Source of the DNA: a virus
Strand: one strand, 5' to 3'
Length of the DNA stretch: 44,643 bases
Virus record (IMG/VR): IMGVR_UViG_3300030385_001504
Span: 1-44,643 of that record
The notes beneath the pieces are model-generated. The model had not been told where the DNA came from. It saw only the letters and a program-made list of their open reading frames with translations, and ran no database searches. Positions 10,977 through 37,378 of the stretch are shown in pieces. The first letter of the stretch is position 1. Each line of letters begins with the position of its first letter. Both the position numbers and the translations under genes were made by a program.

Positions 10977-11309
10977 TTATCTTCCTAATTCGTCCAGCTT
11001 ATCTTTTTTCGCCAAAAGTTCCTCTTCGGTTTCTACATTGGCCGGATCCGGCAAACAGCAGTCAACAGGACAGACAGCAGCACACTGTGGCTCGTCGTGA
11101 AATCCTTTACATTCAGTACATTTATCTGGGACTATATAGAAGAATTCATCTGAATAGAATTTTCCGGCACCGGATGGTGCAGCATCACCATCGCCGTAAT
11201 TCTTTCCTTCAAGTTCCCACTCAGCTCCGCCTTCATAGATGGCTGTATTGGGACATTCAGGTTCGCACGCACCACAGTTAATGCACTCATCAGTGATGAA
11301 AATAGCCAT
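10977..11309 (-). CDS. 2[4Fe-4S] ferredoxin, long-insert type
   Basis: A 110-residue ferredoxin with both cluster sites intact: C9-x2-C12-x2-C15-x3-C19-Pro, and C64-x2-C67-x8-C76-x3-C80-Pro. An insertion of about 40 residues between them and an acidic helix at the end match bacterial ferredoxins I recall from Bacteroidota and Chlorobi relatives. It would carry low-potential electrons in the cytoplasm. It is an unusual cargo for a phage. No partner enzyme is encoded nearby, so it presumably serves a host oxidoreductase, radical-SAM enzyme or reductase. The gene stands apart from the late operon behind 2-3 direct repeats, suggesting its own control. Host contamination is unlikely because phage genes lie on both sides. 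Confidence 0.92.
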
Positions 11310-11890: not shown

Positions 11891-12751
11891 TCATATACTT
11901 ACATGAATGTCTATGTAGTCTAACCCACCGTCTTTTTTCGCTGTCTGTCTCGGTGTAAGTTCTATTTTAATTGATCCCAAATCTGACGGGCTCATGCAGG
12001 CATCAGCTATGTAAGACTTTTTGTTGTCAACATAACTCTGCAAAAACGAGCCTGTCCTTGCGAGTAGTTTTTTGCTTTGCCTTAACTTCAAATGACCACC
12101 GCCCTGTCCTAATTTCATTTGGGTGATGAATGCTGCACTCTTTTTGTGGTCGTGTCCCATTAAGTAAATATCAGCATCGGCAGCCATAGCCATGTCCTCA
12201 ACTCTATTAAGTGAGCCACCCACCTTCTTACTTGCGCCTTTGCCGTGATGTACCCAAATATCTACTTTGGATTTTGCGTTTCTGTTCTTCTGTCTGAAGG
12301 ATAAACGAATAAATGAAGAGACCCCCAAATACTTACAGCTTAATTGACTTGACATATATTGAGTTGAAGTAAACCCACCTACTAATTCAGCATAATGATT
12401 CCCCTCTACTAATCCAATAACATCATCTTTAAAGGGTTTCCACTCCTCAATGAATTTATCAGTTTGAGATTTATAGAAGTCATCTAATGTTTCAATGGTT
12501 GACTCGTGCAGATTCTTATTGCTGAGAATCATTCTTTCTGAAGTTGAAGCCAGGTCATCATAATCCCCCATGCCTAAAATTAGCTTTCTTTTCTTAGTCT
12601 TAACCCACTCTAAATAATCTAAATACCTTTCTTCGTCACATAAGGGTGCAAATCTGTGGATGTCTCCAATCGGAAGAAGATAATACGGTTCGTTATACTC
12701 ATCAAAGATTATCTCTTTATGATGAATAGTAAAGATTCCTGTTGTAGTCAT
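11891..12751 (-). CDS. calcineurin-like metallophosphoesterase
   Basis: A 286-residue protein with the motif series of the metallophosphoesterase superfamily: GD at 29-30 with H32, GMGDYDD at 60-66, EGNHY at 116-120, HHG at 168-170 and GHDH at 199-202. These residues bind two metal ions and cleave phosphoesters; the substrate could be DNA ends, nucleotides or a signalling nucleotide. Phage relatives occur as stand-alone genes. It follows the endolysin gene by 18 bases and so is probably expressed late. Confidence 0.85.
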   Translation of the reverse strand: MTTTGIFTIHHKEIIFDEYNEPYYLLPIGDIHRFAPLCDEERYLDYLEWVKTKKRKLILGMGDYDDLASTSERMILSNKNLHESTIETLDDFYKSQTDKFIEEWKPFKDDVIGLVEGNHYAELVGGFTSTQYMSSQLSCKYLGVSSFIRLSFRQKNRNAKSKVDIWVHHGKGASKKVGGSLNRVEDMAMAADADIYLMGHDHKKSAAFITQMKLGQGGGHLKLRQSKKLLARTGSFLQSYVDNKKSYIADACMSPSDLGSIKIELTPRQTAKKDGGLDYIDIHVSI

Positions 12752-12769: not shown

Positions 12770-13300
12770 TTAAATTTTCATCCAATCATGTATCGTGAAG
12801 TCTTCGGGGATCTTTTTATTAAGTCGGTTAATCCATCCCCGCCCAAATACATCATAATCATCTAGGGATTCGTAGTGGAGTCTAATTAAAGATTTGAATT
12901 GTGCATAAAATATAATGGGTGCGAATCGGTTAATGGCCACCAACGTCAAGCATCCGAATTTACCATCTACTCTTAAGTCACATCCTACACCATTGGCAGT
13001 TCGTTGTATGATTTTCACAGAAGTACGTTTACCAACATTCACACCCACGTCAAATAATCTTATTGCTATCTCTTCATTCTTGATTTTATCGTATAAAGGA
13101 TCCCAGAACTTCTTTAGATAAAAATAGAATAGGATATTACTTACTGCAGCTTTTGATTTGGCTTTGAATAATTTATAATAAATTATAGGATGCCAAACGA
13201 CAGAGACACCGTTCCGAGTGCCTTTCCCTTTATCTCTGGGATGGTATGAGTCGCCCCCCTCGTTTTCAAGCATGAAATCAAATGCTTTTTTGTATCTCAC
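12770..13300 (-). CDS. GH108-type endolysin (N-acetylmuramidase)
   Basis: A 176-residue protein of the glycosyl hydrolase 108 family: FDFMLENEGG at residues 7-16 with the catalytic Glu14, a D-KGKGTRNGVS segment, and a C-terminal RGWINRLNK of the peptidoglycan-binding part. It hydrolyses the glycan strands of the host wall to release progeny. The GTG start at 13300 forms a GTGA overlap with the stop of the upstream membrane protein, so a longer upstream reading is rejected. No signal peptide is seen, so release needs a holin, as the neighbours suggest. Confidence 0.8.
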   Translation of the reverse strand: MRYKKAFDFMLENEGGDSYHPRDKGKGTRNGVSVVWHPIIYYKLFKAKSKAAVSNILFYFYLKKFWDPLYDKIKNEEIAIRLFDVGVNVGKRTSVKIIQRTANGVGCDLRVDGKFGCLTLVAINRFAPIIFYAQFKSLIRLHYESLDDYDVFGRGWINRLNKKIPEDFTIHDWMKI

Positions 13301-13542
13301 AATGATAACAACACGATAGCCAGAACAAGTCCACCGACAAGTGATAACCAAACCCAATAGGGAACTGACTTCATTACTACTTTTACAGCTATGTCAACTA
13401 TCTTAGATTCTATCCAATAACCAATTCTAGCCAATATGCTTATCTTAATTGTAGGTTTCTGATAGATTTCTTTAAGTTTGTCGAGTTTTTTTGGCAGTTC
13501 CCTTTTTGGTGAGTCTAAGCCTTTGGGCTCAATGTCAATCAT
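13297..13542 (-). CDS. tail-anchored membrane protein of the lysis cassette
   Basis: An 81-residue protein. The N-terminal 35 residues are polar and Lys/Pro rich. Hydrophobic stretches at about 36-55 and 60-81 include a strong C-terminal helix (WVWLSLVGGLVLAIVLLSL). It lies between the small holin-like gene and the endolysin with overlaps on both sides. It may be a holin, antiholin or spanin-like helper. Confidence 0.6.
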   Translation of the reverse strand: MIDIEPKGLDSPKRELPKKLDKLKEIYQKPTIKISILARIGYWIESKIVDIAVKVVMKSVPYWVWLSLVGGLVLAIVLLSL

Positions 13543-13708
13543 TTTTTGGCTTGACCGGAGGAGTGTTAAGTCCTAACTTCTCAAAGATTTTAATAATTAT
13601 TTCTAAAATCTTGTTGTCTGTTTCGTTAGGTGTTATTTTTACAATCACTGAAGCAATAGTAACTACGCTAGTGACAACGACAAGCCAATTTTCAGCTAAC
13701 CATTCCAT
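13535..13708 (-). CDS. small holin-like protein
   Basis: A 57-residue protein: a short N-terminal segment, one transmembrane helix (WLVVVTSVVTIASVIVKI), then TPNETDNKILEIIIKIL and a basic Pro-rich end. This arrangement is common in small phage holins. A GAGGT ribosome site precedes ATG 13708, and the stop lies inside the next gene. It would permeabilise the inner membrane for the muramidase. Confidence 0.6.
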   Translation of the reverse strand: MEWLAENWLVVVTSVVTIASVIVKITPNETDNKILEIIIKIFEKLGLNTPPVKPKND

Positions 13709-13710
13709 TT

Positions 13711-13875
13711 TTACCTCTTTTTGTTTTTGATTTTATGTGTTATGCTAATAACCGTGTAGATTATTGATGCGGTTAAGAGAATAATTTTTAATATGCTTTC
13801 TAAGTCCGTGAATGATATACCAAACACAAATCCATTCACGGGTAATACTGTCCATTCTCTTAGTCTCTCTAACAT
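13711..13875 (-). CDS. 54-residue membrane protein, first of the lysis cassette
   Basis: ATG 13875 to TAA 13711. One hydrophobic helix (ILKIILLTASIIYTVISI) is followed by a very basic C-terminus (KIKNKKR), which would stay in the cytoplasm. It lies two bases upstream of the holin-like gene and may be a second holin or its regulator. Confidence 0.6.
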   Translation of the reverse strand: MLERLREWTVLPVNGFVFGISFTDLESILKIILLTASIIYTVISITHKIKNKKR

Positions 13876-13924: not shown

Positions 13925-14236
13925 TCACTCTGTAACGTGGACGTGTATTGTTTCGTCAATCCTAACCCATACTAACGGGTCAGGCCAGAACGGTATCGGT
14001 TCAATTTGATAATAAATTACACCATTTACCACACTGTCGACTCCGGTATAAATAAAGTCGTGTTGGTCTGCTGTGATGGTTTTTATTCCGGCTATAGTAA
14101 TCGCCTGACCAGAATAATTAAATACAACATCCCTTCCGGCTCGTTGGTTAAAGTTTGTATCATAAGCAGTTACGCCCCACCTTGCTTGTCCTGCAAAGAG
14201 GAGGACTGAGAACATTATTATTATTAGTATTTTCAT
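13925..14236 (-). CDS. secreted small protein with Sec signal peptide
   Basis: A 103-residue protein with a classic signal peptide (MKILIIIMFSVLLFAGQA), followed by a beta-rich domain. It is the last of three consecutive signal-peptide genes between the ejection proteins and the lysis cassette. No Cys follows the signal, so it is not a lipoprotein. Function unknown; export to periplasm or beyond is predicted. Confidence 0.65.
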   Translation of the reverse strand: MKILIIIMFSVLLFAGQARWGVTAYDTNFNQRAGRDVVFNYSGQAITIAGIKTITADQHDFIYTGVDSVVNGVIYYQIEPIPFWPDPLVWVRIDETIHVHVTE

Positions 14237-14248
14237 ATTATCTCCTTT

Positions 14249-15250
14249 TTAATTTGCACTTCTGCCCGTCTCGTACCAACTCGTCCCATCATAAACCAGT
14301 GTTAGTGTTAAATCGTCTGCGGAAGTTAAATTGCTGCCACCTACTAAATCAAATGTGTCGGATGTATGACCATCTGTATTTGTGAATGTTACTAAATTAT
14401 CAACAAAAATAAAAATGTATGTACCAACCAACGCACCTGTTACTGAAGCGACTGTATTTCCTGAAGCATCACCTGTTACTGTAATTATGTTTCTTGTTGC
14501 GGCAAAAGTTGTTGCTGATGACCCAAGTGTAATTGTCTGCTGTGCATCAAACCCTATTTCGCCCGAAACGGTTGCTGTGCCTACCACAGCTATCCCCGTA
14601 TCAGTCGCTTTTAATATGCTCACGTTGCTCATAATTATATCAACAGACGTGGCTGACACGCCCCCAATACCGTTAGTCGCATCTTGCTGATTTGGCATTA
14701 TCCCAGGCACAGTCGCAGTTGAAGCATACCTAGCCAACTTCATTGAGCTAGCGGCTGCACCACTGAAGAAATTACCGCTAAACCCGAACTTATCTGCACC
14801 GCCGATCGACACATTTATAGAGTTGTCTAAATTTGAATAAAATCCAGAATTATCACCGTCTAATGTGAGACTTGGTGCGGAAGCAGAGTTATTCGTTTCC
14901 AATATTAAAATGCTTGACGATGTTCCGCTAAGATTGATTGTTTTATCAAATGTATATCCCGCAGATTGAGTAGAGGTAAACCCCCACGTGGCGGCAGTTG
15001 GGTCGGACGCTCCGGTTAGAGTTAAAGTTATAGTCTCTGAAGTAGTCGCTCCACCGTCTGAATCTGCGTCACCAATTATCTTAAAGGTCTTGATTGTATT
15101 GTCTGTCGCCGCAGCACCGACATTTACATCATAAATAGACTCTAAGACCGTTGCGCTAATTAGCGTCCATCTAGAAGCCCTACTTACATCTCCGCCCCTA
15201 CCGTATGCAAAAGAGGAAATAAATAATATTAAGAAAAGTATTTTTTTCAT
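14249..15250 (-). CDS. tail-fibre/spike-like protein with signal peptide
   Basis: A 333-residue protein. The start at ATG 15250 is chosen because AAGGGAG lies just upstream and a signal peptide begins there (MKKILFLILFISSFAYG). The body is rich in Gly, Ser, Thr and Ala with repetitive beta strands. It ends LTLTLVYDGTSWYETGRSAN, the closing strand pattern typical of trimeric phage fibres and spikes. A fibre made with a Sec signal is odd, because virions assemble in the cytoplasm. Confidence 0.6.
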   Translation of the reverse strand: MKKILFLILFISSFAYGRGGDVSRASRWTLISATVLESIYDVNVGAAATDNTIKTFKIIGDADSDGGATTSETITLTLTGASDPTAATWGFTSTQSAGYTFDKTINLSGTSSSILILETNNSASAPSLTLDGDNSGFYSNLDNSINVSIGGADKFGFSGNFFSGAAASSMKLARYASTATVPGIMPNQQDATNGIGGVSATSVDIIMSNVSILKATDTGIAVVGTATVSGEIGFDAQQTITLGSSATTFAATRNIITVTGDASGNTVASVTGALVGTYIFIFVDNLVTFTNTDGHTSDTFDLVGGSNLTSADDLTLTLVYDGTSWYETGRSAN

Positions 15251-15260
15251 TTTATCTCCC

Positions 15261-16103
15261 TTAGTTTTCGTATGCGTATCTAATGTCAACACTCGTTCCG
15301 TCTGATATTAACCAGACTTTATTGAGATTCGATACTGTAATAGTATATGAATCCAAGTATGCTAACGGATAACCGTTGCTCGATGTTGTAGAGTTATCAC
15401 CACCCACCCAAATGAACTCTCCGGCGGTGTTGTTAGTTATTGTTACTTTTTTACAAGTTGTACTTGATGCCAGCACTTCAATACTTGTAATGGCGTTTGT
15501 ACCGTAACCGAAAGTCCCGTTACCCAAAGCCGAAGCTGTTGAAGTCACATTAGCAATAAGATTACCATTAACATCTATTTGGAATGGTGCTACATCTCCA
15601 TTCGTAACTGTTTGTGGCGAACTTTGGTACAATCCACCCGTCAAAGTGTGCGGTGAAAAAGAATCCACCCAATCTGCATCGTCAGCGTAAACGGTAGAAG
15701 TTAAATCCTGTTCGTTTAGAATAGTAGTTAGCCTGAACGCAGTTTGAATCTCCCCCCCGTTAGTAAATACCACTTGCACATATCTACTCGTAGTCGGTAT
15801 AGTAATCACCGGATATTCTGTGTCTGTGGCGATTGTGTAAGAGTGCGTTTGCACCCAATTAGTCCCGTTAGTGCCGAACCTTATAACCAAAGTTCCATTC
15901 ACTCCCGATGAGTGATTGTGGTAGGCGGAAACAGAAATGGATGACCATTTATGTCCACTTTTCAGTAAGTCTCTTGCTGTGCCAGTGAACACGGCAGCCG
16001 AACCCACCACCGTTGTGCTTGAGTTGTTAGCGTCAAGTATATTTCTACCCTGTCCCCACACAACCCCTGCTATTAACATTAAAAGAATGATTAGTTTTTT
16101 CAT
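15261..16103 (-). CDS. beta-rich virion-like protein with signal peptide
   Basis: A 280-residue protein. The signal peptide (MKKLIILLMLIAGVVWG, then QG) is followed by beta-sandwich-like sequence (LVIRFGTNGTNWVQ, RYVQVVFTNGG) and a second domain (KKVTITNNTAGEFIWVGG, VWLISDGTSVDIRYAYE) common in phage baseplate and fibre proteins. It ends ten bases before the fibre-like gene starts. Either it is exported, or the N-terminus is a retained hydrophobic anchor. Confidence 0.6.
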   Translation of the reverse strand: MKKLIILLMLIAGVVWGQGRNILDANNSSTTVVGSAAVFTGTARDLLKSGHKWSSISVSAYHNHSSGVNGTLVIRFGTNGTNWVQTHSYTIATDTEYPVITIPTTSRYVQVVFTNGGEIQTAFRLTTILNEQDLTSTVYADDADWVDSFSPHTLTGGLYQSSPQTVTNGDVAPFQIDVNGNLIANVTSTASALGNGTFGYGTNAITSIEVLASSTTCKKVTITNNTAGEFIWVGGDNSTTSSNGYPLAYLDSYTITVSNLNKVWLISDGTSVDIRYAYEN

Positions 16104-16114
16104 TTTCTCCTCAA

Positions 16115-19100
16115 TTAGAAATTAAATTCCCTCTTAGATTTGCTTTTATTAAATTCAAAATCTTTCGGTTTCTCTTGTTCTTGTTTCACGTCTTTTGTAA
16201 CTGCTAGGTGGAACCCCAATCCTTTCGCCATAGCGTTAAGCCCGTCCATTTCGCCACTTAACCACGACCACATACTTTGTAGTTGTATGGGGAGCGATTG
16301 CCTTCCCTGTGTCGCTAAGTATGACGGGATTTGCCCGTACTCAACAGCACCTCCACCACCCAAACTAAACTTTGTTAGTTGTCCTGCCAGCTTACCGCCT
16401 TTCGGATCACCCTTTTGATACTTGCCCTTTCTATTGCTTTTGTAAACGCCCTTATCATCCAAACCCACAAGCTCGTCCCAATTAGTAAACTCTCTACCTC
16501 TCCAATCAGTCCCCATGAGAGCCTCGAATGCCGCCCTGCCAATTACGCTTGATTTGTGCTTCGCCGACCTCACTGGATGGGCTATAAACTTCACCGGATC
16601 TAAAAAGTGACCAAATATTGAGAAGTATGATCTCTTGCCTTCACCACCACCTATCGCTTTATAAACCGGAGTAACATCGACCATCAACCACCTTAAATAT
16701 CCTTTGTCCCAAGCCTTTTTATATCTTCGTTTAACCGCATCTATGTATGATATTTCCTTACCGTTGTCGTCTTCCGTGTCGAACCCCGCTATCAAAAAGT
16801 TTAACGCAGTAGTAGTGAGCATTCCCCTTTTTATAATTCTTCCCCAAAACTGCCGGTATAGCTGTGTCTCTGCTTTTTCACCAGACTTAACCGCCTTGAC
16901 CATAGTTCTTACATTGCTCTCAGTCCAATCGGGGGCGAGTGCTAACAATCTAAATATATGTTGTAGTGTCGGGTTTCTGCCCAACCTTTGTAAGTGCAGA
17001 CCGCCAAAGTCCTCGTTGATTAAATTAGCGACCATTTTTGCCCTAGCGTTAGGCTCTAGTGTTGGGTTCTCTTTTAGCGATTTTCTATATTCCAACAAAC
17101 CTGCCTGCGCTTTTAACCCTGCCCCAAACTTTGCAAACAAAGAGTGTGCTTGTTTTTCTTGGAATAGTAATATTTTATCTTTAACTGTTCTCGAAACTTT
17201 ATTCTTGTCTAATATTTTACCTAACGAAGATTTTTGTTGTAGTAAAACCTCACTCCAATCTTGAATCCTACCAAGCGTTAAACCATTTCTAACCAACAAC
17301 TCAACTTCGGGCTTCTGTTCTTTTATAGCTTTTAATCCTTCGGCGTATGCTTTGACGGGGTTAATATTCCCCTTCTTCACCGCACCGCCCAACATATATG
17401 ATCTCGCAAATGCTTGGTGATGGAATAAAGATGTCTGAAGTATTGTCGCTTTAATTGCTGCATTATACTTTGTAAGAAAATCAACACCAGGCACACCCTT
17501 TAATTTTGACTGACCTAGTATGTTGTTCAAGTTTTTCGCTATTGATTCCGGTGCGTAAATGGGGACTTTCTCCAACACAGTCCCGTCTTTATTTATAACG
17601 AAATTTCTCCCTTGTGCTTCTGCTTCATTAACCTTGCCTCTGAATTTCCACCACTTGAAATTCGGGTGTTCGATTTGTTTATACCCATCAAGATCTTGGA
17701 GTGAAAAAATATTTTCGCCATTTTCGTCTTTGAGCTTCAGCCCCTCTTTGATTAACCTTTTGCTTTCAATGGCGTTGTTTATTTCTGTTTTTAATGTTGC
17801 CAGATTATTTGAAGCACCCTTCGTTAGTAATTCAAGCCCTTTGCTTTGCCCCTCTAAAATCGTTTCATAAACTCGTTGCTTGGCGTGTCTAGTTGAAACG
17901 CCGAACTTTCTGAAAAACTCTGCACCGCCCTTGCCCTTAATGTCCCACGTTCTAGCCACATAATTATCAATAGTATTTCTAATCACGTCTGACGCCAATG
18001 CCAACTTCCCAACCTTGTCATATTCCTTGCTAATTTTGTCCGCTATGGATTTTTGCTCTGGCGTTAAGTTCTGCGCTATATCTACGATTCGTTTTTGTTC
18101 GACTGTGAGTTTGTCATAATACTTCGCCAGATGAGACGGATTCGCCTTTAAGTCCAAGTGTATGTGAATTGCTTGGTCAATATCCTGCCATTCCTTCTCC
18201 CACTTCAATCTTAATGGTTCTTTGAATCTGTCGCCCGATTTGAATGTTGGCTTGCTCCTTATGGTGTTTTGAATATTCCCTTGAAAATTATTAGCCTCTA
18301 CGTTCGCTTTGTGAGATTCCCAATCTCTGTTACTAAACCAATCATCTTTTAATTTTTCATAAGAACTTGGAGTCTTTGGTTTTGTTTTTGTTTCCGGTGT
18401 GATTTTATTTTCAAACCCCGACTCAAAATCACCCTCGATTACTTTGGAAGTTTTTAAGAATGGATTCTTTTCTGAATACTCGATTAACTTTTTCCCGTAT
18501 GCCTTCTTAATCCCCGCCCAAACTTTCAACAAATGTGGCTTAATCTTCTGCCCGAAGTCTTTCAGCATCGGCTTAGACCATTCCTTGAATTGTTGGGCTT
18601 TCTTGACTCCGCCTCTAATTACATTCTCTAAGTGTTTCGCACCCACGACTACATAATCTTTCACTACTGACGGGTCGACACCTAGATTCGCTCTGCCTAA
18701 ATTCTCTTTGTTGAACGCATCTATATTCTTCTTGGCTTGTTCGACAGTCCTAAATTTCACGAACTCGCCAGAGACAAACTTACCACCCTTTGTCGTACCA
18801 TATTCTACATCTTTGATTTTTAAGTTCTTGGGTATAGTGTCCAAGTCCTTAATTGGCATAGTGGTTTTCTTGCCATCTTCAAATGTTATTTTAACCGTGT
18901 CCGTTTGCTTGGGTTTATTCTTCTTTATATCGGCTAATTCGTTTGACAATTCTTGTGGTTTGACAGTTTCTTTCTGTTTGATAGCCTTATTAACCTTGCT
19001 AAGTATTTTAGTCTCACGCCCATTCAAACCTGACGGCGTGTCTTTTTGGGACTCAAGCCATTGCTTGGTGTTCTTTAATTGATCTAATGTGGCTATGTTT

Positions 19101-21307
19101 ACTGTCTTTGCTTTAGTCTCGGCTTTCGGCTTCTCCGACTTCAACTCCAACTGTCCCTTGTCCACTTTCTTCTGCTCAAACAACGGAGTACCTTCAGCAC
19201 CCTTGCCCTTGCCGACATCTTTTGCGGTTTTAGGAATTTCGATTTTGCCAGTTTCTAATAGGAATTGGTCGCCTGCGGATGTTCTTTCGATTTGAGGTTG
19301 TTTTTCTTTGGGGAATATTTTATCAAAAGCGTCAAATGCTGATTGTAGAGTTCTGCCCTCCCCCTCGAAAAAGATATTCCCATTGTCGTCCAATCCCTTT
19401 ATCATTCTTTGCCCATTGGGTTCTTCGATTATCTGCTCGATAATATTACCTCTTGGGCCTTTCTTGACTATAAATTTTCTGCCATTCTTCTCTGAGATTA
19501 AATGCTCTGTCGCACTTTCACCCAACTTAATATCGTTTGTTATACCCTCTTTCTCGACAAAAGACTTTTCTTTGGGCTTAATCGCTTCGTCAACAATTTT
19601 AGCAACTTCTTCTTTCGGGACAAACTCGCCACTTCTATCTTGATGCCCTTCCTTTAATTTCTCTAACCCAGCCTCACGAACTAACTGTGCTTCTTTGGAC
19701 AACTCTCTTCCCGCATCAGCCTTAATATCTGCTTGACCTTTCGCCAAAGCCTTTTTGCCCATCCCGTCCGGCAAATCTTTCGGTTCAACGAATTTAGATA
19801 GTTCGGTTTGCCTTGCCTGTTCCTTATCGCTTAACTTCTCAAATGACTCTATCGCTTTCGGGTTTGTCGCATCTTCAATCTCGGCTCTAACACCTTTGAC
19901 TCTTGGCTTGGTTACTCGTTCACCATTGATGAATAATTTGCCGTCTTCATAACGAGCGTCTATGCCTTGACTTTTTAACTTGTTGACTTCAAGTTTGATT
20001 AAGTTGGTGTTCTTGGTCTTTTCTGCCGGAGTGAGATGCTCTCTAACTTCCTTTAACTCAAATATGGTTTCAGTGGCAGTCTCTATTGTCGTAGGTTTCT
20101 CTGCCTTGACTTGTGGTTTTTCTGCTTGCTTTGTGGATTCCTTGACTAATGGCTTGCCCGTCTCTTTGATATTTTCTATCTCAATAGTCTCTTTGACTAT
20201 ATCTCGGAGTGCAACTTTGTCTATTATCGATTCAGCTTCTTTTTTCGGTATAACTTTCTTAGTCTGCTTGTCCTTGTATTGCACGACTCCTTTTTTGTTT
20301 ACTGTCTTTTCGGGAGTCTTTGAGTCTATAATCTTATCCAAGACAATCTGTGCATTCTTCGGGTCTAATGAATTGAGAACTTCTTCATCAATTAACTTTA
20401 ATCCCTCTGCCACTTTCTTATTATATTTAGGGTCTAATTTCTTATCATATAGCGGAGATTTAGGCGTGATAAGTCTTGCTCCGTGCATTATCGCTAAAAG
20501 AACTGTATTTATTATTTTATCTTGCAGATCACCGCCTTCAATTTCTGCCATACTATAACCCAAAGCCCCAGCACCGACAATGCTTACTGTGTTCTTGAGT
20601 TTCTTCCCTCTCATAATGGGTGGTAAAGCACCAAATAAAGCACCAAATAAAGTCTCTTCGCCAATACTTTTCGCAACTTCGCCTACATTTTCACCCGTAG
20701 CTAATCTAGCAATAGATTCGGGACTTGATGCTAACGGGAACGTCAACGCACCACTCACGACTCTTTTCAATAACGGATTAGAAAGATTCTTGACTAATTT
20801 TAGACTATTCACCACACCGCCTGCGACTAAAAACGAAGGTAATATACCTACGAGTCCGCCCACAGCACCTAACGCTTTGTCGCCAAATTCACTGCCCGTA
20901 GTTGTTTGAACAGGTGGTTCCTCAAACTCAATCTCTTTGGCGTATTCTTGTGCGATAATGTCGAAACCACTTAATATTCCACCTGCGAGTCCTTGAGTAA
21001 ACGGGTCTGCCGTACGACTTCTTGGCTTTAACGCACCAAATTCATCTCTTTCTGTTTCGTGGATAAATGGTCTTTCTGGTTCTTCTTGTGAAAGACGAGA
21101 AACCTCACTAAGTCCTAAGTCAATTTTCTCAACGTCTAAGGCGTCCGTAGCATCGTCAACCATTGCCTGTGCCAGAGATATGTGCGGTCTTAGAATCTCT
21201 TGCCTTGTTGTCGATTGCCCTGGCTCTTGGGGCGATTCTTGCTCCACAAAGTCAAAATTCCATTTGGGCTTATCTTCAAAATTAAAGTTTCGTTTCTGTT
21301 TAGCCAC
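16115..21307 (-). CDS. giant putative ejection (internal virion) protein
   Basis: A 1,730-residue protein, 12% of the genome. Residues 100-280 are Gly/Ala-rich and weakly hydrophobic, fit for membrane insertion; about 330-900 is Lys/Glu-rich and likely disordered. The last 750 residues are helical, with stretches such as LALAPDWTESNVRTMVKAVK like large polyvalent phage proteins. Both ends carry Phe-rich tags (NFNFEDKPKWNFDF at the start, DFEFNKSKSKREFNF at the end). Its place between the tail hub genes and the fibre genes matches large ejected proteins of podoviruses. No protease, polymerase or transglycosylase motif was recognised. Confidence 0.6.
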   Translation of the reverse strand: MAKQKRNFNFEDKPKWNFDFVEQESPQEPGQSTTRQEILRPHISLAQAMVDDATDALDVEKIDLGLSEVSRLSQEEPERPFIHETERDEFGALKPRSRTADPFTQGLAGGILSGFDIIAQEYAKEIEFEEPPVQTTTGSEFGDKALGAVGGLVGILPSFLVAGGVVNSLKLVKNLSNPLLKRVVSGALTFPLASSPESIARLATGENVGEVAKSIGEETLFGALFGALPPIMRGKKLKNTVSIVGAGALGYSMAEIEGGDLQDKIINTVLLAIMHGARLITPKSPLYDKKLDPKYNKKVAEGLKLIDEEVLNSLDPKNAQIVLDKIIDSKTPEKTVNKKGVVQYKDKQTKKVIPKKEAESIIDKVALRDIVKETIEIENIKETGKPLVKESTKQAEKPQVKAEKPTTIETATETIFELKEVREHLTPAEKTKNTNLIKLEVNKLKSQGIDARYEDGKLFINGERVTKPRVKGVRAEIEDATNPKAIESFEKLSDKEQARQTELSKFVEPKDLPDGMGKKALAKGQADIKADAGRELSKEAQLVREAGLEKLKEGHQDRSGEFVPKEEVAKIVDEAIKPKEKSFVEKEGITNDIKLGESATEHLISEKNGRKFIVKKGPRGNIIEQIIEEPNGQRMIKGLDDNGNIFFEGEGRTLQSAFDAFDKIFPKEKQPQIERTSAGDQFLLETGKIEIPKTAKDVGKGKGAEGTPLFEQKKVDKGQLELKSEKPKAETKAKTVNIATLDQLKNTKQWLESQKDTPSGLNGRETKILSKVNKAIKQKETVKPQELSNELADIKKNKPKQTDTVKITFEDGKKTTMPIKDLDTIPKNLKIKDVEYGTTKGGKFVSGEFVKFRTVEQAKKNIDAFNKENLGRANLGVDPSVVKDYVVVGAKHLENVIRGGVKKAQQFKEWSKPMLKDFGQKIKPHLLKVWAGIKKAYGKKLIEYSEKNPFLKTSKVIEGDFESGFENKITPETKTKPKTPSSYEKLKDDWFSNRDWESHKANVEANNFQGNIQNTIRSKPTFKSGDRFKEPLRLKWEKEWQDIDQAIHIHLDLKANPSHLAKYYDKLTVEQKRIVDIAQNLTPEQKSIADKISKEYDKVGKLALASDVIRNTIDNYVARTWDIKGKGGAEFFRKFGVSTRHAKQRVYETILEGQSKGLELLTKGASNNLATLKTEINNAIESKRLIKEGLKLKDENGENIFSLQDLDGYKQIEHPNFKWWKFRGKVNEAEAQGRNFVINKDGTVLEKVPIYAPESIAKNLNNILGQSKLKGVPGVDFLTKYNAAIKATILQTSLFHHQAFARSYMLGGAVKKGNINPVKAYAEGLKAIKEQKPEVELLVRNGLTLGRIQDWSEVLLQQKSSLGKILDKNKVSRTVKDKILLFQEKQAHSLFAKFGAGLKAQAGLLEYRKSLKENPTLEPNARAKMVANLINEDFGGLHLQRLGRNPTLQHIFRLLALAPDWTESNVRTMVKAVKSGEKAETQLYRQFWGRIIKRGMLTTTALNFLIAGFDTEDDNGKEISYIDAVKRRYKKAWDKGYLRWLMVDVTPVYKAIGGGEGKRSYFSIFGHFLDPVKFIAHPVRSAKHKSSVIGRAAFEALMGTDWRGREFTNWDELVGLDDKGVYKSNRKGKYQKGDPKGGKLAGQLTKFSLGGGGAVEYGQIPSYLATQGRQSLPIQLQSMWSWLSGEMDGLNAMAKGLGFHLAVTKDVKQEQEKPKDFEFNKSKSKREFNF

Positions 21308-22822: not shown

Positions 22823-23443
22823 TTACTTAGTCACTTTTAATAGTTTTACAAATACTCTCATCACGCCTACCGTTGGACTGTTGGCGAGTGTGTATGCTAA
22901 TGTGTCCGCAGAAGTGTAGTGTTTCCAAACGGGATGATCTACATGACCCGTTGCTGTTAAATCTATTGCTGATGTAGGCATTAAAGTTACTCCGTCTGAG
23001 AAAGTAATAGTCGCCGCATTGTCAAATAGCGTAGTCACCACAACGCCGATTCCTTCTAATAAATATCCGGCAGGTATAGATAATATATTGGCGGTGGTGT
23101 CGCCCACAGTAATTTTGAAATTGTAAACTGCAACGCCAAAGTCTGCGGGTATTCCATAGGTGACTGTGCCGGCAGCTTTACTTGGTATGCTAGGTGCAAT
23201 TAAATCTGCACTGCCAATGGTGTCTGACAAAAGTGTTCCTGGTGAATTTCCACTTAACTGGAATCCATCCGTGAATGTTTCATACCACCCTTTTTTAGTC
23301 TTAATCCTTAAATGTGCCTTGCCTGTTGTCTTATTAAACCCGTAATCAATCCCGTCAGTTTTTTCGTATAACTCTTGGAGTAACCGGTACACTTCTTCAA
23401 AACTTCTATTTGTGTCGCCTCGACTGTATGCTAATTTTCTCAA
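22823..23443 (-). CDS. virion protein, tail-associated
   Basis: A 206-residue protein with a helical N-terminus (SFEEVYRLLQELYEKTDG), GFNKTTGKAHLRIKTKKGW, and a beta-rich C-terminal half. It overlaps the tail hub gene by four bases. Likely a tail or head-tail component; no precise family was recognised. Confidence 0.55.
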   Translation of the reverse strand: MRKLAYSRGDTNRSFEEVYRLLQELYEKTDGIDYGFNKTTGKAHLRIKTKKGWYETFTDGFQLSGNSPGTLLSDTIGSADLIAPSIPSKAAGTVTYGIPADFGVAVYNFKITVGDTTANILSIPAGYLLEGIGVVVTTLFDNAATITFSDGVTLMPTSAIDLTATGHVDHPVWKHYTSADTLAYTLANSPTVGVMRVFVKLLKVTK

Positions 23444-36689: not shown

Positions 36690-37053
36690 TTGACCCCTCT
36701 AATGTTTTTTCCCATTCGTGAATTATGTCGTAAACTGCCGACTGTTCTTTTTTGTGGACTGTTTCGGAGATTTTCTCGATTTGTCCGGTTATATTTGCCA
36801 CATATATACTGTCTTTGCCTATTATTAAGGTTTGTAAGTGTGCTATTTGTTTTTCATACTTCTTTGTGACGGTTTTGAAGAAATTATACAACCCTTCATA
36901 CAACATCACAGATAAAGAACCCTTTTCGTCAACGGTCATCTCTTTGCCGGAGATTTGGAGTTGATTTTCAGTGATATTCAGCAATAATAGCGTCCTGTGA
37001 GAGACTAACTCGTCTAGCATTGAATCTATTTTTATTTCTTCGAGTTTATTCAA
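36673..37053 (-). CDS. hypothetical helical protein
   Basis: A 126-residue, mostly helical protein overlapping the GroES-like gene by 17 bases and the Tat-signal gene by eight. It resembles small coiled-coil chaperone or packaging helpers in composition. No family is recognised. Confidence 0.55.
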   Translation of the reverse strand: MNKLEEIKIDSMLDELVSHRTLLLLNITENQLQISGKEMTVDEKGSLSVMLYEGLYNFFKTVTKKYEKQIAHLQTLIIGKDSIYVANITGQIEKISETVHKKEQSAVYDIIHEWEKTLEGSNVQAN

Positions 37054-37378
37054 GTTCGTCTCTAATGTCTCTGAACATTGCTAATTGACGATCGGTGAAG
37101 TGCTCACCCCTACGTTCTGCCCGTGTTTGTACAAAGTCCAGGAAAGGTGTCCGAGTAGTCTGTCCGTGATTGAACATTTTATAATTATCTCTCCAATCGG
37201 GTTCAATTCTAAAGATTTTCTCTGCGTCTTTCTCGAACTCTTTCCGAGTGTATATCGGTACATCATACTCTCCGACTGGACTAAACTCGTCTTTCCCCAA
37301 ACCTTCAATAACTGTCGGTGCTACCGCTACTACTCCCAAACCTATTCCGAATCTTTTTAGAAAATTTCTACGCTTCAC
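37046..37378 (-). CDS. protein with twin-arginine (Tat) signal
   Basis: A 110-residue protein. Residues 1-28 are a textbook Tat signal: twin Arg in KRRNFLKRFG, a moderately hydrophobic stretch (IGLGVVAVAP), then the mature part. Tat exports folded, often metal-binding proteins. The cargo of about 80 residues has no Cys or His cluster and resembles nothing I know. It overlaps the Cys-rich gene upstream (11 bases) and the helical gene downstream (eight bases), so all three are co-translated. Confidence 0.65.
   Translation of the reverse strand: MKRRNFLKRFGIGLGVVAVAPTVIEGLGKDEFSPVGEYDVPIYTRKEFEKDAEKIFRIEPDWRDNYKMFNHGQTTRTPFLDFVQTRAERRGEHFTDRQLAMFRDIRDELE

Follow-up and report, generated by a model that had tools for sequence, protein, structure and literature searches.

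Why would a tailed phage equip proteins that resemble virion parts with signals for export? The question is raised by three consecutive genes, here named genes 1, 2, and 3, of an uncultured, short-tailed phage, which is represented by one complete IMG/VR record (IMGVR_UViG_3300030385_001504). The window analysed is this whole record of 44,643 nucleotides. In the usual view, the cytoplasm is where tailed phages both synthesise and attach their fibres; for this reason, a first-pass annotation of the window had regarded the export of such proteins as odd and had suggested secreted decoys, receptor-blocking proteins, or surface-displayed factors. Below, we follow the three products from their N-termini to their possible fate.

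The phage and its late genes

The capsid protein and the adaptor match the SU10 families PF17236 (7e-11) and PF24175 (4.8e-10), both with scores above cut-off, and TerL and portal have matches among the PHROGs. Judged by these matches, the phage is SU10-like and of the podovirus type. Its late genes are arranged in the order TerL, portal, scaffold, capsid, adaptor, nozzle, and a 1730 aa ejection-like protein, followed by genes 1-3, small membrane proteins, a GH108 endolysin, and a metallophosphoesterase (Table 1); the labels scaffold, nozzle, and ejection were assigned from position and size. As genes 1-3 lie inside this late region, contamination with host DNA was rejected. Apart from them, no clear fibre gene was recognised in the late region of the window; a 206 aa protein with a beta-rich C-terminus (22823-23443) could be another tail appendage.

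Just past the metallophosphoesterase, the minus strand encodes a ferredoxin of the 2x[4Fe-4S] type (10977-11309), a possible auxiliary metabolic gene and host marker. Because it is 85% identical to Ignavibacterium, the host is probably a member of the Ignavibacteriota. Upstream of TerL, a 110 aa product (37046-37378, minus strand) begins with VKRRNFLKRFGIGLGVVAVAPTVIEGLG, a signal of the twin-arginine (Tat) type. This route is unusual for a phage protein, and the product has no match in Pfam or PHROG.

Table 1. Features of the locus and its surroundings (positions refer to the window)
Feature	Positions	Strand	Evidence or homologue
1730 aa ejection-like protein, directly upstream of gene 1	16115..21307	-	1659 aa homologue in G610, E 4.5e-31
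Shine-Dalgarno AGGAG, gene 1	16107..16111	-	sequence
Gene 1, 280 aa: Sec signal peptide, XepA-type beta-sandwich, linker, small C-terminal beta domain	15261..16103	-
Predicted signal peptide, gene 1, residues 1-17, MKKLIILLMLIAGVVWG, then QG	16053..16103	-	sequence, rule-based scan
Gene 1 N-terminal beta-sandwich, residues 21-140, XepA-type	15684..16043	-	AF2, Foldseek, profile
Gene 1 C-terminal small beta domain, residues 187-280	15264..15545	-	PHROG 30212, E 2.7e-6; low-confidence fold
Shine-Dalgarno GGGAG, gene 2	15256..15260	-	sequence
Gene 2, 333 aa: Sec signal peptide, fibre-like body, spike-like C-terminal domain	14249..15250	-
Predicted signal peptide, gene 2, residues 1-17, MKKILFLILFISSFAYG, then RG	15200..15250	-	sequence, rule-based scan
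Gene 2 C-terminal domain, residues 235-333, end YDGTSWYETGRSAN	14252..14548	-	G610 identity, AF2, Foldseek
Shine-Dalgarno AGGAG, gene 3	14242..14246	-	sequence
Gene 3, 103 aa: Sec signal peptide, small domain	13925..14236	-
Predicted signal peptide, gene 3, residues 1-18, MKILIIIMFSVLLFAGQA, then RW	14183..14236	-	sequence, rule-based scan
54 aa membrane protein, candidate holin	13711..13875	-	homologue upstream of endolysin in L278, E 1.7e-5
57 aa small membrane protein	13535..13708	-
GH108 endolysin without signal peptide	12770..13303	-	PF05838, phrog_315
Metallophosphoesterase, last gene of conserved cassette	11891..12751	-

Three adjacent genes with Sec signal peptides

The first-pass annotation had described three consecutive genes with Sec signal peptides. 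The adjacent minus-strand ORFs of 280, 333, and 103 residues were found where it had placed them, each preceded by its own Shine-Dalgarno sequence. Gene 2 starts at the ATG at position 15250 and not at the longer GTG form given in the program-made list of ORFs. The choice of a wrong start codon was rejected for all three genes: A Shine-Dalgarno sequence lies close to each ATG, and any later in-frame start that loses the hydrophobic stretch would not keep the gene whole.

The signal peptides were called by means of a home-made rule-based scan and by inspection. All three N-termini possess one or two lysines, about 12-14 uncharged hydrophobic residues, and a -3/-1 cleavage site, and thus the features of a type I Sec signal, i.e. 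a positive n-region, an h-region of 7-15 residues, and small residues at -3/-1. The predicted mature N-termini include QGRNILDANNSS and RGGDVSR. The claim of real signal peptides on all three products was borne out in this respect; among the 72 called ORFs of the window, the scan was positive for exactly these three. In ten MCP-related phages, 3 of 290 ORFs were positive, none of them a fibre or structural gene; in SU10 and phiEco32, the annotated holin was the only positive. At a background of 1.4%, three consecutive positives are expected by chance with a probability of about 2e-4 if all positions are allowed, a value to be read with the clustering of signal-bearing genes in such contigs in mind.

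Several other kinds of N-terminus or cargo were rejected for genes 1-3. A lipobox and a cysteine at the cleavage sites are absent (lipoprotein), as is an RR pair (Tat export); the hydrophobic stretch is too short for a typical long transmembrane anchor, and the C-terminal sorting domain of T9SS cargo gave no Pfam match. Likewise, no outer-membrane anchor or other surface anchor was found in these genes.

Domains of the three products

For residues 21-140 of gene 1, an AlphaFold (AF2) model based on 48 homologous viral sequences has pLDDT values mostly between 93 and 97. Among solved structures, XepA from the PBSX prophage comes closest (6i56; top Foldseek match, E 2.5e-5); it is also the best PDB match of the domain's profile, in the same signature stretch and with a marginal E-value of 0.014. 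With the fold match adding support to this marginal profile match, the domain is confidently predicted to be a homologous beta-sandwich of the XepA family. For a huge-phage homologue of this domain, the E-value is 1.2e-14. In a tblastn search of the phage collection with gene 1, the sole match was a domain of a huge phage, and a XepA fragment gave no match in this collection. Homologues of the C-terminal domain occur stand-alone or fused in other phage contigs. The length and the domain order of gene 1 fit XepA, the fold of the C-terminal domain being of low confidence; a virion-attachment domain was not recognised in gene 1.

These findings bear on the possibility that the products are free factors of the envelope, comparable to XepA or Llp, which are not virion parts and stay in the periplasm or on envelope and debris. 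Their roles could be membrane disruption at lysis, a block of receptors or superinfection, or keeping progeny off debris. XepA of the PBSX lysis cassette from Bacillus subtilis is exported and reported to be absent from mature particles; it consists of 279 residues forming two beta-sandwiches and a linker (PMC6834076; PDB 6i56). In T5, the gene for the periplasmic exclusion protein Llp adjoins that of the receptor-binding protein (PMC9586334). Gene 1, with its XepA-type N-domain, 280 residues, two domains, and a location near holin and endolysin, is consistent with these precedents, and the absence of XepA from mature particles favours a free factor for gene 1. On the other hand, XepA lacks a signal peptide, and morphogenesis regions of phages often encode its domain with no such signal; furthermore, the lack of a lipobox, outer-membrane anchor, or T9SS anchor in genes 1-3 argues against this explanation, as does their position, which is described below. 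Altogether, we regard a free factor as a realistic, if rather doubtful, possibility.

Gene 2 was modelled with pLDDT values of 90-95 for residues 241-330. Foldseek matches of its C-terminal domain are tailspikes and one capsid spike, so that the modelled domain resembles spike-type, fibre-class proteins; a tblastn search of the phage collection gave marginal matches to tail fibres. The fibre- or baseplate-like beta domains that had been ascribed to genes 1 and 2 are therefore supported as beta domains by AlphaFold (residues 21-140 and 235-333, respectively), whereas "baseplate-like" is better replaced by a XepA-type beta-sandwich in gene 1 and a spike-type C-terminal domain in gene 2. Gene 3 has no detectable relative: Nothing convincing was found in the phage collection by tblastn, and the best hit among relatives (E 0.0013 with filters off) was not accepted. 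Exact-peptide scans of IMG/VR yielded no direct relatives of gene 1, gene 2, the 1730 aa protein, or TerL.

Five of 395 genomes from the host phylum also encode the C-terminal domain of gene 2; in most cases, it is part of a large protein adjoining genes with export-type N-termini. This distribution would suit moron-type adhesins, that is, fibre-like proteins exported by the lysogen or infected cell which alter the host surface or adhesion. A precedent is PblB (PMC4508584), a pneumococcal prophage protein with a predicted signal peptide and a role as adhesin, and repeated YSTMSG..NAYSATG units occur in the gene 2 homologue of the relative G610 introduced below. However, genes 1 and 2 as whole proteins were not found in the 395 and 294 host-group genomes searched (the search recovered a known positive), no surface anchor was found, and genes 1-3 are not isolated but part of the late morphogenesis-lysis order. 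An adhesin is thus improbable.

The same slot in related phages

By means of a pattern for the gene 2 C-terminus, we found the IMG/VR record 3300010223_000005 (44.0 kb; G610, identical to contig L249). Its matches to the window phage in TerL (2.6e-112), portal (3.1e-145), nozzle (1.1e-78), and ejection protein (4.5e-31) indicate that it is a true, divergent relative. G610 has the same late gene order, with three consecutive signal-bearing genes between ejection protein and lysis genes; their signals are MKKIIILLMLFVSISFA, MKKLIILFLFTASLFA, and MRKLIFILLFTVTLNA, each followed by Q. The middle gene is the homologue of gene 2, with 61% identity across residues 219-333; the mature N-part of gene 2 is unrelated to it and has no match even there. 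Between the C-domain of gene 1 and the first slot gene of G610 (150 aa), there is no significant match, although the ends look alike by eye. The third gene (L249:7045-7533, minus strand, 162 aa) has hydrophobic C-terminal stretches and is unrelated to gene 3 of the window.

The trio is absent from MCP-related marine phages. In three marine SU10-like relatives (L276, L278, L281), the slot right before the homologous holin, endolysin, and metallophosphoesterase is taken by tail-fibre genes, which have no signal peptides and no detectable sequence similarity to genes 1-3. As these relatives have tail-fibre genes in the same slot, the trio of the window occupies a fibre slot, and this position speaks against free factors.

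Recurrence in other viral contigs

The combination of signal and fibre-class body is not restricted to these two phages. Among 74 distinct, 5'-complete, viral ORFs with the gene 1 domain, five carry a signal peptide at the ATG, compared to 9 of 642 other ORFs of the same loci (Fisher p 0.0098; background 1.4%). For the C-terminal motif of gene 2, the numbers are 7 of 24 versus 18 of 215 (p 0.006; background 8%). Both p-values are optimistic due to shared ancestry among the sequences, and the data stem from environmental contigs, with small samples and few close relatives. The number of adjacent pairs of signal-bearing genes exceeds the chance expectation (11 pairs versus 1.85; maximum of 7 in 2000 shuffles). 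At least six changes of the trait, spread over several lineages, are required on the tree of gene 2, where the window clusters with G610. For the gene 1 domain, a single origin of the signal-bearing forms was not rejected (p-AU 0.123), so independent gains are not proven for this family.

Three related proteins of 447-467 residues combine signal peptides with a XepA-type domain (L206:4809-6167; L142:6649-7992, minus strand; L168:204-1607). A PHROG 8198 C-part is present in those of L168 and L206, and the one in L168 has a cyanophage 'virion structural protein' as a relative. For the signal-bearing proteins of L142 and L168, there are signal-less relatives over the whole length, with 48-62% identity. 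Three consecutive signal-like genes (95, 112, and 701 aa) are also found in an unrelated viral contig (L245:1868-4629, minus strand).

The most instructive case is L222 (identical to G611; IMG/VR 3300017613_001674), where a protein of 791 aa that matches the tail spike PHROG 7458 begins with a signal peptide. Its aligned attachment region begins at residue 31-34, compared to codon 11-15 in the tailspikes of Pam1, PBR31, and MW202691. After the predicted cleavage, it would start within 2-3 residues of the starts in these tailspikes; the removal of about 22 residues would thus restore a normal tailspike start. The same phage has not only a signal-bearing trio behind the ejection proteins but also two adjacent putative lipoproteins (14008-15795; 305 and 284 aa; ...FGGCAQ and ...FIACAQ), which lie between genes resembling portal and scaffold. 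The first-pass annotation's proposal to search related phages for signal-bearing fibres is answered by the G610 trio, including the gene 2 homologue, and by other viral contigs. The annotation's premise that virion parts assemble in the cytoplasm is weakened by the fibre slot, by the lack of another clear fibre gene there in the window, and by the L222 signal in front of an intact attachment region.

A reading without export would be that the N-termini are uncleaved peptides which anchor proteins in the virion or touch membranes and are kept in the particle. Hydrophobic N-termini are possible in fibres. Yet all three genes have full n-, h-, and c-regions plus cleavage sites, the G610 signals are of the textbook Bacteroidota type (MKKLIILFLFTASLFA then QDFG), Ignavibacteria host proteins bear signals of the same make as those of the trio and G610, homologous bodies occur without such N-termini, and the L222 extension precedes an otherwise complete tailspike N-terminus. 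We consider this reading very improbable. Instead, the well-formed signals, the fibre-class bodies, the relative with the same slot, and the recurrence make it very likely that the products of genes 1-3 are exported by Sec and cleaved before lysis, as predicted from their sequences.

Possible fates after the predicted export

With respect to what follows export, we slightly favour over the other fates, and tentatively so, that the proteins join virions late, at lysis. The products of these fibre-slot genes would be made late, translocated across the inner membrane by the Sec machinery of the host, and trimmed and folded in the periplasm; they would act outside the cytoplasm around lysis. When holin and endolysin open the cell, progeny virions would meet the waiting fibre-class proteins, and at least the products of genes 1 and 2 would attach as receptor-binding or decorating appendages, surplus being shed. 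In favour of late joining are the fibre slot, the tailspike of L222, the spike-like C-terminal domain of gene 2, and the fact that no other clear fibre gene was recognised. In vitro, P22 heads take up tailspikes as the final assembly step. Extending this model, a group of tailed phages with diderm hosts might complete their virions outside the cytoplasm, with Sec-exported fibres or spikes joining at cell opening; this is conceivable, with more doubt than confidence on our side.

Besides the reported absence of XepA from mature particles and the possible further appendage at 22823-23443, two findings count against late joining. First, G610 shares the C-terminal domain of gene 2 but not its mature N-part, where a virion-attachment site would be expected; this speaks against a standard virion anchor. 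Second, some neighbours in similar modules (L222, G610) are lipoproteins or seemingly membrane-bound, unlike fibres; the presence of such lipoproteins is in line with free factors. In either case, the occurrence of the same bodies with and without signals suggests a function outside the cytoplasm at or after lysis. Late virion attachment, which the first-pass annotation did not mention, is at least as plausible as the secreted factors it proposed.

Comparison with known systems

Single exported phage proteins, namely XepA, Llp, and PblB, are already known. In an incomplete literature search, no paper was found that treats fibres with Sec signals as a class recurring among phages. Signal peptides were reported to be lacking in a survey of phage DGR target proteins (PMC6199706) and were scarce in five rumen phages (PMC5723332). 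If Sec signals recur as a class on fibre, spike, and XepA-type proteins, either some virions receive their last parts in the periplasm or at lysis, or phages make wide use of fibre domains as free factors blocking receptors or aiding lysis. Since a signal peptide is easily mistaken for the mark of a cellular protein, either reading affects the recognition of receptor-binding proteins in metagenomes. The combination seen in the trio was also met in further uncultured phages; certain tailed phages may therefore export proteins of the fibre class across the host membrane ahead of lysis.

The individual systems resemble the trio in different respects. XepA shares with gene 1 the beta-sandwich of the N-domain, a length of about 280 residues, two domains with a linker, and the location in a lysis cassette; it is extracytoplasmic, as predicted for gene 1. 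In contrast to gene 1, which carries a Sec signal and precedes a spike-type gene, XepA has no signal peptide and a Gram-positive host. T5 Llp and Cor of T1 and phi80 are phage-encoded, exported superinfection-exclusion proteins (PMC9586334), comparable in their export to that predicted for the trio, but they are small lipoproteins, whereas genes 1-3 lack a lipobox and have fibre-like domains. PblB is, likewise, a phage tail-type protein with a predicted signal peptide (PMC4508584); it differs by its Gram-positive host, a size of about 213 kDa, and other domains. The marine tail-fibre pair has the slot before holin, endolysin, and metallophosphoesterase in common with the trio and differs from it by the lack of signal peptides and of detectable similarity. 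The L222 tailspike belongs to a phage that is not closely related, keeps a recognised virion-attachment region, and has a lipoprotein as neighbour; like the trio, it combines a signal with a tail-class protein behind the ejection proteins and has two more exported-type neighbours, and the third gene of its trio shares the C-terminal motif of gene 2.
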